Shown: positions 722-8,300 of the stretch, piece after piece
Numbering within the stretch: the first letter of the stretch is position 1
Layout of the letters: every line of letters starts with the position of its first letter
Assembly: GCF_001895925.1 (NCBI RefSeq)
Contig: NZ_MPPI01000001.1
Span: 1-64,000 of the forward strand
Direction: 5' to 3'
DNA: 64,000 bases
From: Phormidesmis priestleyi ULC007
GTDB lineage: Bacteria > Cyanobacteriota > Cyanobacteriia > Leptolyngbyales > Leptolyngbyaceae
The notes under the pieces: model-generated
What the model was told of the DNA's origin: nothing
Database searches by the model: none
What the model saw: the letters and a program-made list of their open reading frames with translations, nothing else
Made by a program: the position numbers and the translations under genes

Positions 722-1954
<1,233 letters not shown>

Positions 1955-1985
1955 GCTTTCCTGGGTAGAATCGGTCTGACATAGA

Positions 1986-2015
1986 AAAGCCCTCCACTTG
2001 CGTGGAGGGCTTTTT
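1986..2015 (+). terminator. Intrinsic terminator of psbA
   Basis: The arms GCCCTCCAC (1989-1997) and GTGGAGGGC (2002-2010) form a perfect 9-bp GC-rich stem with a four-base loop, followed by a T run. It lies about 30 bases after the psbA stop codon. Confidence 0.93.
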
Positions 2016-2118
2016 GAATGTTTGGCCTTTGCAGCAATGAAGACTTTAGAGAAAACTTAGACTTTTTGCTGAACACGATCGTAGACTGCAAGAAAGGTTT
2101 TATTTTGCTTTTACAGTC

Positions 2119-5034
2119 ATGACGCTCACCCAAGTCTGGGGATCTCTCGTGATCTTCATAATCTGTCCAATTTTGGGAGGTCTGCCTCTGATCGATTGGA
2201 TGACTTATGGAATTACTAGGAAACGGTTAAAAAATCTCGGCACCGGAAATGTGAGTGTCTCGGCTGCTTTTTATCATGGCGGAAAGTTTGCCGGAATTTT
2301 AGCCGTTCTGTCGGAGGCGCTAAAAGGAATTGCAGCCGTTTTTCTGGCTCGTGCTTTCTTTCCTGATCATGCTGAGTGGGAAATGATTGCACTGATTGCT
2401 TTGGTGTTTGGGCGTTATTGGATTAGCCAAGGGGCGGGCACGACGAATGTCGTCTGGGGTTACGCAGTACACGACCCGATTTCTGCTCTTCTGGTTTTCT
2501 TAATCGGTGGCATCGGCTTTACAATTCTTCGAGAACGCAGCCAGGGTCGAATCGGCATTCTGATTTTATTCCCCCTAGTGACTGCGTTGCGGCATTCTCA
2601 AGACTCTGCATTGATTGTGATGACGATCGCGTTAGCAGTCCTTTTAGGATGGATTTACAAAAAGATTCCAGACGACTTAGATATGAGGACTGAAGCCGCG
2701 CAAAAAACATCTCAGTCTATGTTTAAATTCTTTCGGGGCGATCGCTCCCTAGTTTCTCTCGATCAACGTTTGTTACCGGGCAAGGCAGGAGAAAAAGCGG
2801 CAACTCTATCGGATCTGAAGCGATCGGGCTACCCAGTGCCAGAGGGTTGGGTTTTGTTTCCGGGTGATGACCCTGCGCCGCTGATCGAGATTCTTCAGCC
2901 TTCTGAGGCGGAGCCTTTGGTCGTCAGATCTTCTGCGATCGGAGAAGATTCTGAGGCGGCTTCGGCGGCAGGACAATATCAAACAATTTTGGGCGTGACG
3001 CGGCGAGAAGAACTGCTGCCCGCGATCGCGCAATGTTTAGAGTCTTATAATCGCGCTTCGGCAGTTCAATATCGGCGCGATCGTGGATTATCTGATAGTT
3101 CGATGGTGGTGCTGATTCAGAAGCAAATTCGGGGTGTGTTTTCTGGAGTTGCCTTTAGTCGCGATCCCATTTCTAGGCAAGGCAATGCGGTTGTTATTGA
3201 AGCCCTGCCGGGTGATGCAGAATCGATCGTATCAGGACGAGTGACTCCAGAAGCTTATGAGATTCAAGTCCCCGATGCTTTAACGCTAGATTCGGATTGG
3301 GTTTTACCCGATGAATTGATATTGGAAGTCACGGGAGTAGGCAATATTCCACCGAGATTAGTGCAGCAAGTGGCTTTTCTGGTGCGCCGTCTTGAGAATC
3401 AGTATCACGGCGTTCCTCAAGATGTGGAGTGGACTTATGATGGTCGCGCTTTGTGGGTGTTGCAGTCTCGACCCATCACAACTCTGTTGCCAATCTGGAC
3501 TCGTAAGATTGCGGCTGAAGTGATTCCGGGGTTGATTCGTCCGCTTACCTGGTCGATCAATCGTCCGTTGACGTGCGGCGTTTGGGGAGAAATTTTTACG
3601 ATCGTGCTGGGCGATCGCGCTCAAGGACTCGATTTTAATGACACGGCAACGCTGCACTACTCTCGCGCTTATTTCAACGCATCACTGCTAGGGCAACTTT
3701 TTCGACGAATGGGGTTGCCGTCTGAGAGTTTAGAGTTTCTCACGAGAGGGGCAACATTTAGTAAGCCTCCGGTGCAGTCAACGCTTCGCAATCTGCCGGG
3801 ATTGCTGCGGTTAATCGGTCATGAATGGCAGCTTGAGCAGAACTTTGGTCGGGACGATCGCCGCAGATTTTCTCCTTTTCTCAACGAGGTTGCGACGCAT
3901 CCCACTTCTGAATTGTCTGTTGCTAATCTGGTAGAGCGAGTTGAGCTGATTCTTGAGTTGCTCAAAACTGCCACTTTTTATAGCATTTTGGTTCCGTTGA
4001 GTGCAGCATTGCGAAAGGCGATTTTGCGAGTTAGCGATGAACAGATTGACAATGGAGATACGCCAGAGGTGGCGGCACTGCGATCGCTGCAAGCATTAGC
4101 GATCGCAGCCCATCAAGATTTAATCAGCAATGAACAGATAACTGGGACAGATAAAAATGCTGTTAGCAGTTCAGAACTTTTTGGAATGCTAGACAGAACA
4201 GTCAACGGGCGAGAAATTCTCGATCGGTTTGACCAAATCTTAAATCGTTATGGCTATTTAAGTGAGGTCGGAACCGATATTGCGGTGCCTACTTGGAGAG
4301 AATACTCACAACCTGTTCGAGATTTATTTGCTCAGTTTTGTTTGAATCCGCCCCTTAGAGCAGAATCAGTTAAGCCACGTAAAGCTGGGTTTGTTCAGCG
4401 TCGGTTTGGTCTCAAAGGGCGAGTCACAGAAGTTTATAGTCAGCTATTAGCAGAGTTGCGATGGAGTTTTGTTGCGTTAGAAAGGGATTGGCTGCAATCG
4501 GGCATACTTTCTGAACCGGGTGATATCTTTTTTTTAGCGTTAGAAGAAGTCCGCCAAGCCTCGCATCTTGATCGCCAAATGCTTGAGCGGATTCCTCAAG
4601 TGATTGCTCAACGTCGATCGCGCCTTCAGACCGATGATCAGCTTGAGCAAGTTCCGACGATCGTCTATGGAGACGATCCACCCGCCCCGATTTTGCAAAA
4701 TTGGCAATCTTCTCAGCAGTTGCAAGGCATTGGGGCCAGCCCCGGACAGGTTGAAGGACGCATTAAAGTGATGCGATCGCTGTCAGCAAATGTAACTGAC
4801 CTCGATCGAGAGACCATTCTCGTGGTTCCTTATACAGATTCTGGCTGGGCACCGCTTTTGGCAAGAGTGGGAGGATTGATTGCGGAGGTTGGCGGTCGGT
4901 TGTCGCACGGGGCGATCGTCGCTCGTGAATATCGCATTCCCGCTGTGATGGATGTCAACAACGCGACTCATCTTTTGCGCGATGGGCAGTCTGTTCGCAT
5001 CGATGGTCAAAGCGGAACGGTTGAAATTTTGTAG
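2119..5034 (+). CDS. PlsY-like acyltransferase fused to PEP synthase/PPDK-like domains
   Basis: This 971-residue protein has three parts. Residues 1-190 are a multi-pass membrane domain like PlsY (acyl-phosphate:glycerol-3-phosphate acyltransferase), with a GTGNVSVSAAF loop where PlsY has its G-N-[IV] motif. Residues about 225-465 match the ATP-binding PPDK/PEP-synthase N-domain (VVRSSAIGEDS, FSGVAFSRDP, PQDVEWTYDG, LQSRPITT). After a middle region of unknown fold, the last 80 residues are the PEP-utilising mobile domain with catalytic-type His in GGRLSHGAIVARE (about residue 930). This suggests a phosphotransfer enzyme tethered to a lipid-synthesis domain. The frame is continuous. The reaction of the fused protein is not known to me. 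The start is the first ATG before the first membrane helix, and no strong ribosome binding site is visible. Confidence 0.85.
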   Translation: MTLTQVWGSLVIFIICPILGGLPLIDWMTYGITRKRLKNLGTGNVSVSAAFYHGGKFAGILAVLSEALKGIAAVFLARAFFPDHAEWEMIALIALVFGRYWISQGAGTTNVVWGYAVHDPISALLVFLIGGIGFTILRERSQGRIGILILFPLVTALRHSQDSALIVMTIALAVLLGWIYKKIPDDLDMRTEAAQKTSQSMFKFFRGDRSLVSLDQRLLPGKAGEKAATLSDLKRSGYPVPEGWVLFPGDDPAPLIEILQPSEAEPLVVRSSAIGEDSEAASAAGQYQTILGVTRREELLPAIAQCLESYNRASAVQYRRDRGLSDSSMVVLIQKQIRGVFSGVAFSRDPISRQGNAVVIEALPGDAESIVSGRVTPEAYEIQVPDALTLDSDWVLPDELILEVTGVGNIPPRLVQQVAFLVRRLENQYHGVPQDVEWTYDGRALWVLQSRPITTLLPIWTRKIAAEVIPGLIRPLTWSINRPLTCGVWGEIFTIVLGDRAQGLDFNDTATLHYSRAYFNASLLGQLFRRMGLPSESLEFLTRGATFSKPPVQSTLRNLPGLLRLIGHEWQLEQNFGRDDRRRFSPFLNEVATHPTSELSVANLVERVELILELLKTATFYSILVPLSAALRKAILRVSDEQIDNGDTPEVAALRSLQALAIAAHQDLISNEQITGTDKNAVSSSELFGMLDRTVNGREILDRFDQILNRYGYLSEVGTDIAVPTWREYSQPVRDLFAQFCLNPPLRAESVKPRKAGFVQRRFGLKGRVTEVYSQLLAELRWSFVALERDWLQSGILSEPGDIFFLALEEVRQASHLDRQMLERIPQVIAQRRSRLQTDDQLEQVPTIVYGDDPPAPILQNWQSSQQLQGIGASPGQVEGRIKVMRSLSANVTDLDRETILVVPYTDSGWAPLLARVGGLIAEVGGRLSHGAIVAREYRIPAVMDVNNATHLLRDGQSVRIDGQSGTVEIL

Positions 5035-5054
5035 TGGTGAAGAAAAATCTAAGG

Positions 5055-5113
5055 ATCGTAAATTACATAACGTCGGTTACTTGCAAGGTTGAAGGCACGG
5101 CAGTGCCCTACCC
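5055..5113 (-). repeat. Dispersed repeat R2, copy a
   Basis: Read on the minus strand, this stretch gives GGGCACTGCCGTGCC followed by a tract ending AGTAACCGACGTTATGTAAT. It matches, with point differences, plus-strand stretches at about 23031-23096 and 27744-27805. The GGCAC/GTGCC part can form a small hairpin. Confidence 0.6.
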
Positions 5114-5131
5114 GTACGTAAATTTGCTTAA

Positions 5132-5310
5132 TTTAGCGTCAGTTCGATGAGTTCTTTCGCTTCGTTTTCAGCGGCTTCTGCCCCCTAAATCCCCCAATTT
5201 TGGGGACTTTAAGCTCAGAGTTTAGGTTCAAAGTCCCCCAATTTTGGGGGATTTAGGGGGCAATCCGGATTTGCAACCGCAGCGAAAAACTTCATCGATC
5301 TCACGTTAAA
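5132..5310. repeat. Hairpin repeat R1, copy 1
   Basis: The core (5180-5261) consists of two back-to-back palindromes: CCCCCTAAATCCCCC, a short inverted GGGGACTTT, a spacer, then AAGTCCCCC and GGGGGATTTAGGGGG. The core sits inside a longer imperfect inverted repeat. The left flank (from 5132, TTTAGCGTCAGTTCGATGAG) pairs with the right flank ending at 5310 (reverse complement TTTAACGTGAGATCGATGAA). It fills the gap between the PlsY fusion and sbcC. Confidence 0.8.
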
Positions 5311-5354
5311 TCAAATTGATACAATCACTCTGGCAATTTAATTTTGATAGATCC

Positions 5355-8300
5355 CTAGAGGCAGAGCATAATTTGTGAGCCTTCAGAGGTTTTTGTGACC
5401 TCAATGCGCGCTTGGAACGCCTCTCGAAAATAGGGCATGTGTGTAACTGTGAGAATGCAGGAAAAGTCAGGCGCGATCGCATTAATCGCCGCAATCAAGC
5501 GATCGCAGCCTTCTTGATCCTGTGTGCCAAAGCCTTCATCAACAATCAGCATTTGCAGGGCAGTGCCCGATCGGTGTGATAGCAATCGAGCCAGCGCCAG
5601 ACGAATTGCAAAATTAACCCGAAAGGCTTCTCCGCCTGAATAGGTTTCATAAGGGCGTGTGCCGTGAGCGTCGGCGATCAGAATGTCGAGGGTCTCGATC
5701 GATTTGGGATTTTGGGTGATGCCTCGCGTCGATTTGCTAGAAGATTTTGCACTGCGGGCGGTGCGTTGAGTCACAAATTGAACGTGCAGTTGATTGGCAC
5801 TGAGACGAGAAAGAATTTGATTCGTTGTCGCTTCTAGCTGCGGCAGCACATTCTCAATCAAGAGTGCCTGAATGCCATTTTTGCCAAAGGCTAAGGCGAG
5901 TTCTTGATAGACTCGGCTCTGCTGACGTGCCAGGGTTAACTGGGTTCTGAGTTCTCCATCTTGAATTCTGAGCGCGTCTTGCTGCTGTTGCTGTTGCTGA
6001 AGCCGACCCAGACGGGCAAGCTGTTCATCTAGCTGTTGGCGCTGCCGTTGTAGTTCTTGTTCGATCGCCTGAATCTGAGCCGTAAAATCGGATGTTTGCT
6101 CTAAATAACTGACGAGTTCTTGAGTGTGGAGGCTCACCGTTTGCAGCTCGTTTAGCCGCGTCTGGAGGGTTTGCGCCAAGTCTTGGAGACGCTGCTGCAC
6201 CTGCGGAAATTGCTGCTGTGCCTGTCGCAGTTCTTGAAACCGCAACTGCCAAGGCTGTGCCTGCCGGAGTGCGACTCTGAGCGCATTGTGTTGCGCTAAA
6301 TCATAGCCAATTTCAGCAATTTGGCGATCGCTCTGCACAAATCCGGCGGCGGTGTCTGCCTGAAGCTGTTCTATTTGCTGTTCTAGCTGAGACACTTGAG
6401 CTGTTAGCTCTGGCTGATGGGCAGTCATTTGGGCCTGTCGTCGCTGTGCCTGTTTGATATCTGCAAGTTTAATTTCTGCCCACCGCCAGCGATCGACGGC
6501 TCCTCGTGCCAGGGCGTGATCTTTTTCGTCATAGCTCAGTTGTTGGAGGCTGCGATCGAGTAGGGTCAATTCTTCTTGCACATCAGTGGCATAGTCTCGA
6601 TCGTGCAGTTGTTGTTCGAGTTGAGAAGCTTCTACCGTAAGTTGTTCCAGGCTTTTTTGCACATCGGCGGTAGTTTGAAGTTGTTCTTGCAGTTGTCCGC
6701 GTCGCTCTAACGCCGAGCCAAATTGCGCGAGTTGAGTGTCAAGTTCTGCATATTCTCGCCGCAAAACTTGAATTTCTCGCTCAGACACCGCTAACTGTTC
6801 TCGAATCACCCAAATTTGATCGAACACTTCTTGCCGCTGCTGCTCGTGTTTTTGTAAGACGAGATTCCAGTGGGGTTCATCGAGGGGACGATCGCAGAGC
6901 GGACAAGGCGGATAAGAAGAATTTTGCGGGTCGAGGATTGAGGGTTGCGTGAGAGTCGCAACAGATTGAGTTGCGGATGAGGACTCGGTTGAATGAATGG
7001 ATTGTTCATCCGTAACTCTATCTGCTGTCAACTCACGTTCTAGTTCTGCAAGATCTTGATCTCCTAATGTGCCTTGTTTGAGCATCCGCAGTTTGTGATC
7101 TAATTCGGCGAGATGGGCTTCGTGGTCGCGCTGATGGGCTTGCAGTCGATCCATAAAGCTGCGCCGCTCTAGCCCTTTTTCGCGCACTTGTTCTTGATAG
7201 AGTTTGAGTTTTTCTAACGCTTCAATGCGATCAGCAACTTCGACGGCTGCGCGCTGTAGTTTGGGCTGACGCTGCTGCTGGGTCTGAAGCTGATGTGCAG
7301 AAGTTCGCAGTTCATCAAGTCTGGCGGTGAGTCGGGTTGAGGCTCGATCGAGATCGCTTTGCAGGTGTTGGCGACGCTGAAGCAGCGGAGCCACTTGCAT
7401 TTGCAGTTGGTCTAGATGAGTCAGTTGCAGCCGTGCCTCTCGCAGTTGTTCAACTCCGGCTTCAACATCGGCAGCTTTGCTGAGGGTGCGCTGAATCTCT
7501 TGAAACTGTTGTTCTAACACCACGCCTTGCGCTTGCAGATTTTGTAACTGATTTTGAAGATCGTTGAGTTTCGTGGTTTGTTGCTGCTGATATTGTTGGC
7601 GTTTGGCTTGAGCAACCTGATGGGCTTGAAATTTTGTAGTAAAGCCGTCTTCCCGCATTTGCAGCGTTTGCCATTGCTGATATCCATTGGCGATCGCGCG
7701 TTCTTGTTGCAGCAATTCAATTAGCGTTTGCCGTTGGTGATCGATCTGCGTGAGTTCTTTTTGCAGGCGTTGGCAGTCTTGATTAAGATTACGTTGCTGT
7801 TGCTGTTGCCAGGTGAGTTGCTGTTTTGTGGTTTGTCGGTGTTGCTGTCTGGCTAAAAGATTCTGCAACTGCTCATTATAGGCAGTTTGCTGCTGCTGCA
7901 TTTGCGCTAGTGTTGCCTCTAACTGGGCGCGTTCTAGCGCGATCGCTTCGGTTTGTTGCAACTGTTGTTGAATCGACGCTAGATTTCGTTCTAGCAGTTC
8001 TACTTGCCCTTTAAACTGACGAGATTTATCTTTGGCTTGCTCTGCTAACTCATCATAGCGCTGTAGCTTTAACAGATCAGCGAGAATTTGTTTACGATCG
8101 CCCGGACGCTTGAGCATAAACTCATCGGCGCGACCCTGCCGCAAATAAGCTGAGTTGACAAACGTATCGTAATCGAGCTTCAAATGCTCCAGAATTAAGT
8201 GCTGAGTGGCACGAATTCCTTTTTCGGTGAGCGATCGAAACGAGGGTAAGTGTGAATCTGAGTTGTGACTTGCGATCGCTCCGTGGGCAATTTGAAACTC

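Follow-up and report, generated by a model that had tools for sequence, protein, structure and literature searches.

The gene at positions 2119..5034 (forward strand) of the analysed window, the first 64,000 nucleotides of contig NZ_MPPI01000001.1 of Phormidesmis priestleyi ULC007 (assembly GCF_001895925.1), encodes in a single open frame of 971 codons plus stop a PlsY-fold membrane domain followed by a dikinase related to rifampin phosphotransferase (RPH). We read the product as an integral-membrane RPH-type small-molecule dikinase, an "X,water dikinase", whose PlsY fold has been re-equipped, and give this reading a probability of about one half. We class the protein as a membrane-fused variant of the RPH-type dikinases and not as a PlsY.

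A first-pass annotation had described the frame as a PlsY-type membrane acyltransferase joined, through some 400 residues of unknown fold, to a phosphotransfer protein resembling phosphoenolpyruvate (PEP) synthase. The union of the three recognised domains in one frame was confirmed, with Pfam matches above the curated cut-offs for G3P_acyltransf (PF02660, residues 15-180, 58 bits), PPDK_N (PF01326, 263-456, 142 bits) and PEP-utilizers (PF00391, 896-966, 78 bits), and with homologues of the fusion in 28 of 39 genomes, its own included. The PEP part of the description did not survive, since no PEP/pyruvate-binding domain is found among the Pfam matches at E <= 1 and the closest solved relative is RPH. 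NCBIfam gave 33 matches. Models of PEP-synthase-like and rifamycin-inactivating phosphotransferases head the 25 that are listed, every one of which scores well below its curated cut-off.

The C-terminal part resembles rifampin phosphotransferase

By sequence, the best solved relatives of residues 208-971 are RPH structures, at about 20-26% identity, and the order of the parts (ATP-grasp, acceptor domain, C-terminal swivelling histidine domain) is that of the RPH-type small-molecule dikinases. Residues 208-457 (2740..3489; this and all other features located here lie on the forward strand) make up the ATP-grasp domain, which was delimited by PF01326 and by its match to 5hv6 (Z 22.1, root-mean-square deviation (rmsd) 2.4, 222 residues of the full AlphaFold2 model). 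The swivelling phospho-histidine domain occupies residues 865-971 (4711..5031), as judged from PF00391 and a profile alignment to the RPH His domain. Between them, residues 458-864 (3490..4710) match RPH both in sequence order, through a co-linear profile match, and in predicted structure, and therefore correspond to the acceptor region, which in RPH binds rifampin, and not to an unknown fold.

The full-length AlphaFold2 model, built from 43 sequences, has a mean predicted local distance difference test score (pLDDT) of 81 and a predicted template modelling score (pTM) of 0.56. Foldseek matched it to RPH with an E-value of 1.8e-26 over 922 columns, and VIA-align superposed residues 208-971 on residues 2-866 of 5hv3 with Z 32.9 over 628 residues and an rmsd of 10.7. 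The high rmsd of this match would be in keeping with a different placing of the domains, and the model does not pin down how they are arranged.

The ATP-site residues described for RPH are K22, R117, T136 and E297, and the phosphate-accepting residue is His825 (PMC4844700). In the profile alignment R117, T136, E297 and H825 pair with R270, position 289, E437 and H930, and K22 was paired by eye with K226. K226, R270, E437 and H930 are invariant in the 43 sequences, position 289 being serine in 25 and threonine in 18; H930 (4906..4908) is thus the predicted phosphoryl carrier. The acceptor site is less alike. The helix that carries Arg666-Glu667...Lys670 in RPH is not reliably aligned by hhalign, and an ungapped register set by eye, anchored on the RPH-like protein L143, places K766, G767 and T770 of the fusion at these positions. 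K766 (4414..4416, in helix 756-794) is a lysine in 43/43 sequences and a candidate counterpart of the catalytic Arg666. On these alignments the ATP half appears to be preserved, the acceptor half altered.

The fusion thus shares with RPH (5fbs, 5hv1, 5hv3) the domain order, the ATP-site residues and histidine, and a structural match over residues 208-971. It differs in its N-terminal PlsY-fold domain, RPH being described with three domains, none in the membrane (PMC4844700), and in its acceptor site, where the Arg-Glu...Lys of RPH seems not to be retained in that form (K766 for R and G767 for E, in the by-eye register). HpeHI, CreHI and PpsAB, two-component phenolic dikinases with a small hydrophobic acceptor and AMP as product (PMC12167813), likewise have RPH-type ATP-grasp and His/acceptor parts, and HpeI (9goj) matches the ATP-grasp part of the fusion with Z 18.1 and rmsd 4.3 over 226 residues. 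In contrast to the fusion, they are separate components with phenolic acceptors, and the available portion of their description mentions no membrane domain (PMC12167813). PEP synthase and pyruvate phosphate dikinase share the ATP-grasp and swivelling His domains, whereas the fusion has no PEP/pyruvate barrel by Pfam and its His domain is C-terminal, not central.

Some relatives also encode soluble RPH-like proteins of 869-890 amino acids (L143:528-3137, L144:507-3179 and L145:377-3028; L, G and C numbers are our handles for loci, genomes and contigs, f and g numbers for families and genera). The REYPK acceptor motif is present in L143.

The membrane domain has the PlsY fold with other residues in the pocket

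Residues 1-207 (2119..2739) form the PlsY-fold transmembrane domain, as recognised by PF02660 and in the AlphaFold2 models. In the model of the N-terminal part (pLDDT 90), every structure matched by residues 1-197 at E <= 0.001 is a PlsY (five chains, template modelling scores 0.72-0.76; 5xj5-5xj8), and in the full model the domain superposes on 5xj7 with Z 17.9 and rmsd 2.9 over 180 residues.

For the catalytic residues we compared 26 fusion sequences, hand-picked from the full-length forms and including no degenerate ones, with 21 canonical cyanobacterial PlsY proteins (that of the same genome and 20 picked hits), pairing the Aquifex PlsY numbering with fusion positions by motif and by eye. 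The residues reported in Aquifex PlsY to serve glycerol 3-phosphate (G3P) and acyl-phosphate are S35, R45, H92, K104, H177 and N180, with T41 and H92 as acyl-phosphate contacts (PMC5700162). All seven are uniform in the 21 canonical proteins. In all 26 fusion sequences S35 is replaced by threonine, R45 by tyrosine, H92 by arginine (R99) and K104 by glycine; H177 is replaced by tyrosine in 24 and phenylalanine in 2, T41 by serine in 24 and alanine in 1 (threonine is kept in 1), and N180 is variable. S142 of PlsY, placed by eye at position 144, corresponds to arginine in 18, lysine in 6 and glutamine in 2. The changes centre on two altered motifs, residues 41-55 (2239..2283, GTGNVSVSAAFYHGG), where canonical cyanobacterial PlsY reads GSGSTGATNVLRxxGK, and residues 98-114 (2410..2460, GRYWISQGAGTTNVVWG), in which the His and Lys of the PlsY GH...GGK are lost. 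Judged from these alignments, the pocket residues are swapped for other near-invariant ones and have not drifted.

In Aquifex PlsY the T41S mutant keeps about half and S35T 17% of the activity, and alanine mutants of the phosphate clamp lose more than 92% (PMC5700162). By analogy, the exchanges at T41 and S35 are mild ones in PlsY itself and the others are not. The stand-alone plsY that the first-pass annotation had suggested looking for is present as a complete canonical copy elsewhere in the genome (C8), and of 97 genomes of the class, 96 gave a separate canonical PlsY with an E-value of 1.3e-44 or lower, the 97th (G101) giving a weak match only. The fusion differs from PlsY, then, in its replaced G3P-clamp and acyl-phosphate residues, its attached dikinase and the canonical PlsY alongside it. 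A role of the membrane domain as G3P acyltransferase was rejected, the PlsY residues being replaced by others that are conserved in 24-26 of the 26 sequences or, at N180, variable. As far as the alignments tell, the domain is a PlsY fold without PlsY chemistry.

The portion of a review of Synechocystis metabolism that was available names only PlsX, PlsY and PlsC (PMC7133116), and no description of the fusion was found in the open-licence literature.

The motifs of the two halves are conserved and decay together

Across the 43 sequences, 39 of the 207 membrane positions (19%) are invariant, beside 56 of 250 in the ATP-grasp domain, 88 of 407 in the middle domain and 35 of 107 in the His domain (22-33%). 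The invariant polar and charged membrane residues include T42, N44, H53, E66, K69, R78, R99, T109 and N110.

We scored 15 membrane and 9 dikinase positions, chosen by ourselves as conserved columns, in 127 related sequences, some possibly from the same genome twice, and called a sequence high at 12 or more and 8 or more, respectively. The set holds the window's protein, 78 of 80 named loci, 47 other proteins and the second half of L190; L033 (no complete open reading frame (ORF)), L090 (844 amino acids), and L189 and L198 (no ORF with a match) were left out. High scores in both sets were obtained for 101 sequences, and 23 were low in both. One of the latter, L207, is a frameshifted gene of a metagenome-assembled genome (MAG) and was not counted as degenerate, which leaves 22 degenerate proteins. 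Only three lay off the diagonal: L187 (11/15 membrane, 8/9 dikinase) and the two halves of L190, each intact. L190 (380-3312) is a natural fission, with a membrane part of 207 and a dikinase part of 770 amino acids encoded by adjacent genes that overlap by 4 bases, both with intact motifs.

Fourteen of the degenerate proteins are short forms of 346-472 amino acids without the middle and His domains, in which the loss of motifs is near complete. Six others (L110, L178-L182), of 591-650 amino acids and second copies in genus g31, lack the middle domain, and four of them have Asn in place of the carrier His, which the other two retain. The remaining two are 900 amino acids long with His replaced by Gln. 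By a crude hydropathy count, made on 9 of the 22, the N-terminal part is still hydrophobic. Since 35 genomes had been picked for weak N-terminal scores or two copies, the share of degenerate forms is no guide to their frequency. The short forms (L104-L108, L191, L192, L194, L199-L201 and L204-L206) consist of the membrane part and an ATP-grasp remnant with few catalytic residues. They persist as intact ORFs in several genera and are possibly pseudoenzymes with a role of their own.

A FastTree phylogeny of residues 1-455 from 59 of the 127 sequences places L187 among Nostocales-like sequences, separates the short forms of family f26 from the others (support weak, at 0.214), and groups the forms of f1, f12 and f37 with the g31 second copies, although long branches may have gathered these. 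From these placements we count at least two, perhaps three or more, separate losses. Judged by their motifs, the two halves appear to be evolving in concert.

Distribution of the fusion

The fusion is old and widespread in cyanobacteria. In the 28 genomes noted above, identity is 48-82% in the relatives; the G002 copy is truncated where its contig ends, and in G005 and G030 the frame is broken. Shortened relatives occur in 5 further genomes of the 39. Genus mate G001 appears to be Phormidesmis priestleyi BC1401, to judge from match coordinates identical to those of L024. The phyletic distribution, which the annotation had also proposed to examine, was followed with an N-terminal profile. At E <= 1e-12, and counting shortened forms, this profile matched 231 of the 388 genomes of the class, from 116 of 160 genera. 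A draw of 146 genomes across the phylum gave matches in 51 genomes of the class, and the sole match outside the class was weak (5.7e-7, in a 389-codon frame). That search listed 53 matched places, two of them being the window's gene, and at 50 of these the open frame reaches 900 codons.

The named loci come from the best 80 of 472 relatives in a scan of genome contigs, all searches being confined to the cyanobacterial phylum. All but one of the 80 are cyanobacterial by name. The exception, L097 (JACCVJ010000118.1), is a MAG labelled Tatlockia sp., whose copy is of cyanobacterial type (61% identity), with a YegS-like gene 61 bases downstream; this MAG is probably misbinned. A chimeric assembly or annotation accident as the source of the fusion was ruled out, the fusion being conserved across many genomes.

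Within the same assembly, positions 856-48945 of the window (48 kb) are repeated on contig C108 (1-48090) with 13 mismatches, all within psbA (868-1258), and the two sequences diverge upstream of psbA. The repeat is probably a redundant or misjoined assembly at the psbA repeat, and the second copy of the fusion that it holds is therefore likely not a real duplicate.

Genomic surroundings

The ORF directly upstream, at 800..1954, is one that we take from its sequence to be psbA (D1). An upstream psbA on the same strand within 5 kb was found in the window and in 8 of 79 named loci (E <= 1e-10), and in 1 of 40 diverse genomes; by a rough estimate this would be more than chance for a few-copy gene, and a link to photosystem II repair is conceivable. 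The distance is 0.15-4.6 kb in the window and in L060, L070, L043, L047, L048, L032, L044, L041 and L264. The 79 loci include 65 with at least 2.5 kb of upstream and 71 with at least 1 kb of downstream sequence. No operon common across the class was found, the largest family of flanking genes, the fusion aside, occurring at 26 of the 79.

Other neighbours were counted within 5 kb, with a threshold of E <= 1e-15. Upstream, on the opposite strand, a GDSL lipase occurs in 26/79 loci and 6/40 genomes, and a cupin gene lies downstream in 22/79, starting 3 bases before the last base of the fusion in the six cases listed, all from Nostoc. A YegS-type lipid kinase (DAGK_cat) is downstream in 6/79, three of them (L098, L058 and L097) with a same-strand match that starts 58-113 bases past the end of the fusion, and a PlsC-like acyltransferase is nearby in 6/79 loci and 1/40 genomes. 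Several of these neighbours are lipid enzymes, a hint at lipid metabolism that is suggestive at most. A scan of positions 1800-5400 for promoters and terminators gave counts not above those of shuffled sequence.

Proposed reaction and alternatives

In the proposed mechanism the ATP-grasp domain would bind ATP and His930 on the swivelling domain would take the beta-phosphate, as in RPH (ATP -> AMP + Pi). The phosphate would then travel with the swivelling domain to an acceptor bound by the middle domain, giving overall ATP + X + H2O -> X-P + AMP + Pi. The PlsY fold would no longer acylate G3P, its pocket having been re-equipped with Thr42, Asn44, Tyr52, His53, Arg99, GAGTTN at 105-110 and Arg/Lys144, and would most likely present or receive a lipid-like acceptor or product on the cytosolic face. 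The analysis establishes the architecture, the folds, the kept ATP and His residues, the exchanged and newly conserved PlsY positions, the joint decay of the two motif sets and the separate PlsY. From these we infer the dikinase reaction itself, by analogy with RPH, and further that the membrane pocket serves this same reaction; that the acceptor is a membrane lipid, such as a fatty acid or an isoprenoid alcohol, is our guess.

A dikinase that uses ATP must lie on the cytoplasmic side of the membrane. The G3P clamp of PlsY is described as opening to the cytoplasm (PMC5700162). With the clamp on the side of the dikinase and with conserved polar and basic residues in the pocket, we therefore propose a lipid-like acceptor or product. 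RPH-type enzymes that act on hydrophobic small molecules have precedents in rifampin (PMC4844700) and in phenolic compounds (PMC12167813). That the family is a new class of lipid dikinases, in which the acyl-phosphate/G3P site of the PlsY scaffold has been turned to presenting a membrane lipid head group to the swivelling phospho-histidine, is a tentative extension, well short of an even chance. The phosphotransfer module may make an activated lipid; the annotation had spoken of an activated donor.

Several points weigh against the membrane-dikinase reading. The domain arrangement is uncertain, given the pTM of 0.56 and the rmsd of 10.7 to RPH. The second half-reaction may differ, because in the by-eye register Glu667 has no counterpart (G767) and Lys670 is replaced by T770. 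The forms of 591-650 amino acids have lost their motifs partly only (7-11/15 membrane, 6-7/9 dikinase), L187 is lowered in the membrane set while it passes in the dikinase set, and on the tree L187 alone stands clearly apart from the other degenerate forms. No operon common across the class was seen, nor an upstream gene common to many of the 40 diverse genomes. The joint decay, moreover, speaks for a shared constraint and not for a shared reaction. In part it says no more than that a protein without a job decays everywhere, the scored positions having been picked by us as conserved and the thresholds set by us; the sequences, besides, are related.

The strongest competitor, which we consider unlikely, is that the membrane domain is a mere anchor and that the RPH-like dikinase needs no more than its middle domain to act on a small molecule, be it hydrophobic or soluble. 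RPH itself is described without a membrane domain (PMC4844700), L190 carries the two parts as separate genes, and the PlsY catalytic residues are gone, as the annotation had foreseen for such a case. The loss of these residues thus stands, but the step from there to an anchor is disfavoured: 39 of the 207 membrane positions are invariant, polar and charged ones among them, and the degenerate forms lose these residues while their N-terminal part, by the crude count on 9 of the 22, stays hydrophobic. The membrane domain is probably not a mere anchor, because the new residues are strongly conserved and decay jointly with those of the dikinase.

A sensor or phosphorelay, in which the membrane domain would bind a lipid or ion and the dikinase half, in the manner of enzyme I of the phosphotransferase system, would phosphorylate a partner protein, appears improbable. 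The His domain resembles that of enzyme I, and the persistence of short forms that lack catalytic residues would suit regulatory pseudoenzymes; however, the whole RPH acceptor region is kept, with 88 of 407 positions invariant, and a widely shared partner gene was not seen nearby in the 79 loci or the 40 diverse genomes. A role in defence or resistance, with hydrophobic antibiotics being phosphorylated on their way across the membrane, would have its precedent in RPH, which phosphorylates rifampin (PMC4844700), but is hard to credit for a protein matched in 231/388 genomes and 116/160 genera, a distribution that looks core-like rather than patchy, when separate soluble RPH-like genes occur in some relatives, with REYPK in L143. 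Scarcely tenable is a working PlsY with a PEP-synthase-like module that makes acyl-phosphate or senses PEP: PF02660 is above cut-off, the T41 counterpart is Ser or Thr in 25/26, R99 puts a basic residue in the old phosphate hole of H92, and T41S and S35T retain part of the activity in Aquifex (PMC5700162), but the counterparts of S35, R45, K104, H177 and N180 are T, Y, G, Y/F and variable, clamp alanine mutants lose nearly all activity (PMC5700162), the PEP/pyruvate domain was not found and 96/97 genomes hold a separate canonical PlsY.

Implications

The fusion is a large and highly conserved protein of many cyanobacteria, whose function was not found described in the literature searched, and PF02660 matches in cyanobacteria are evidently not all acyltransferases. 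If it does work as a dikinase embedded in the membrane, the RPH-type dikinases would gain an integral-membrane form, in which the PlsY fold has been given a new job, and the lipid or isoprenoid metabolism of cyanobacteria would seem to include a phosphorylation step so far overlooked. Should the more doubtful lipid dikinase prove true, it might yield, for example, acyl-phosphate directly from recycled fatty acids, in addition to the PlsX route, or the phosphate of an isoprenoid alcohol, and would spend two ATP bonds in doing so, in many oxygenic cyanobacteria.

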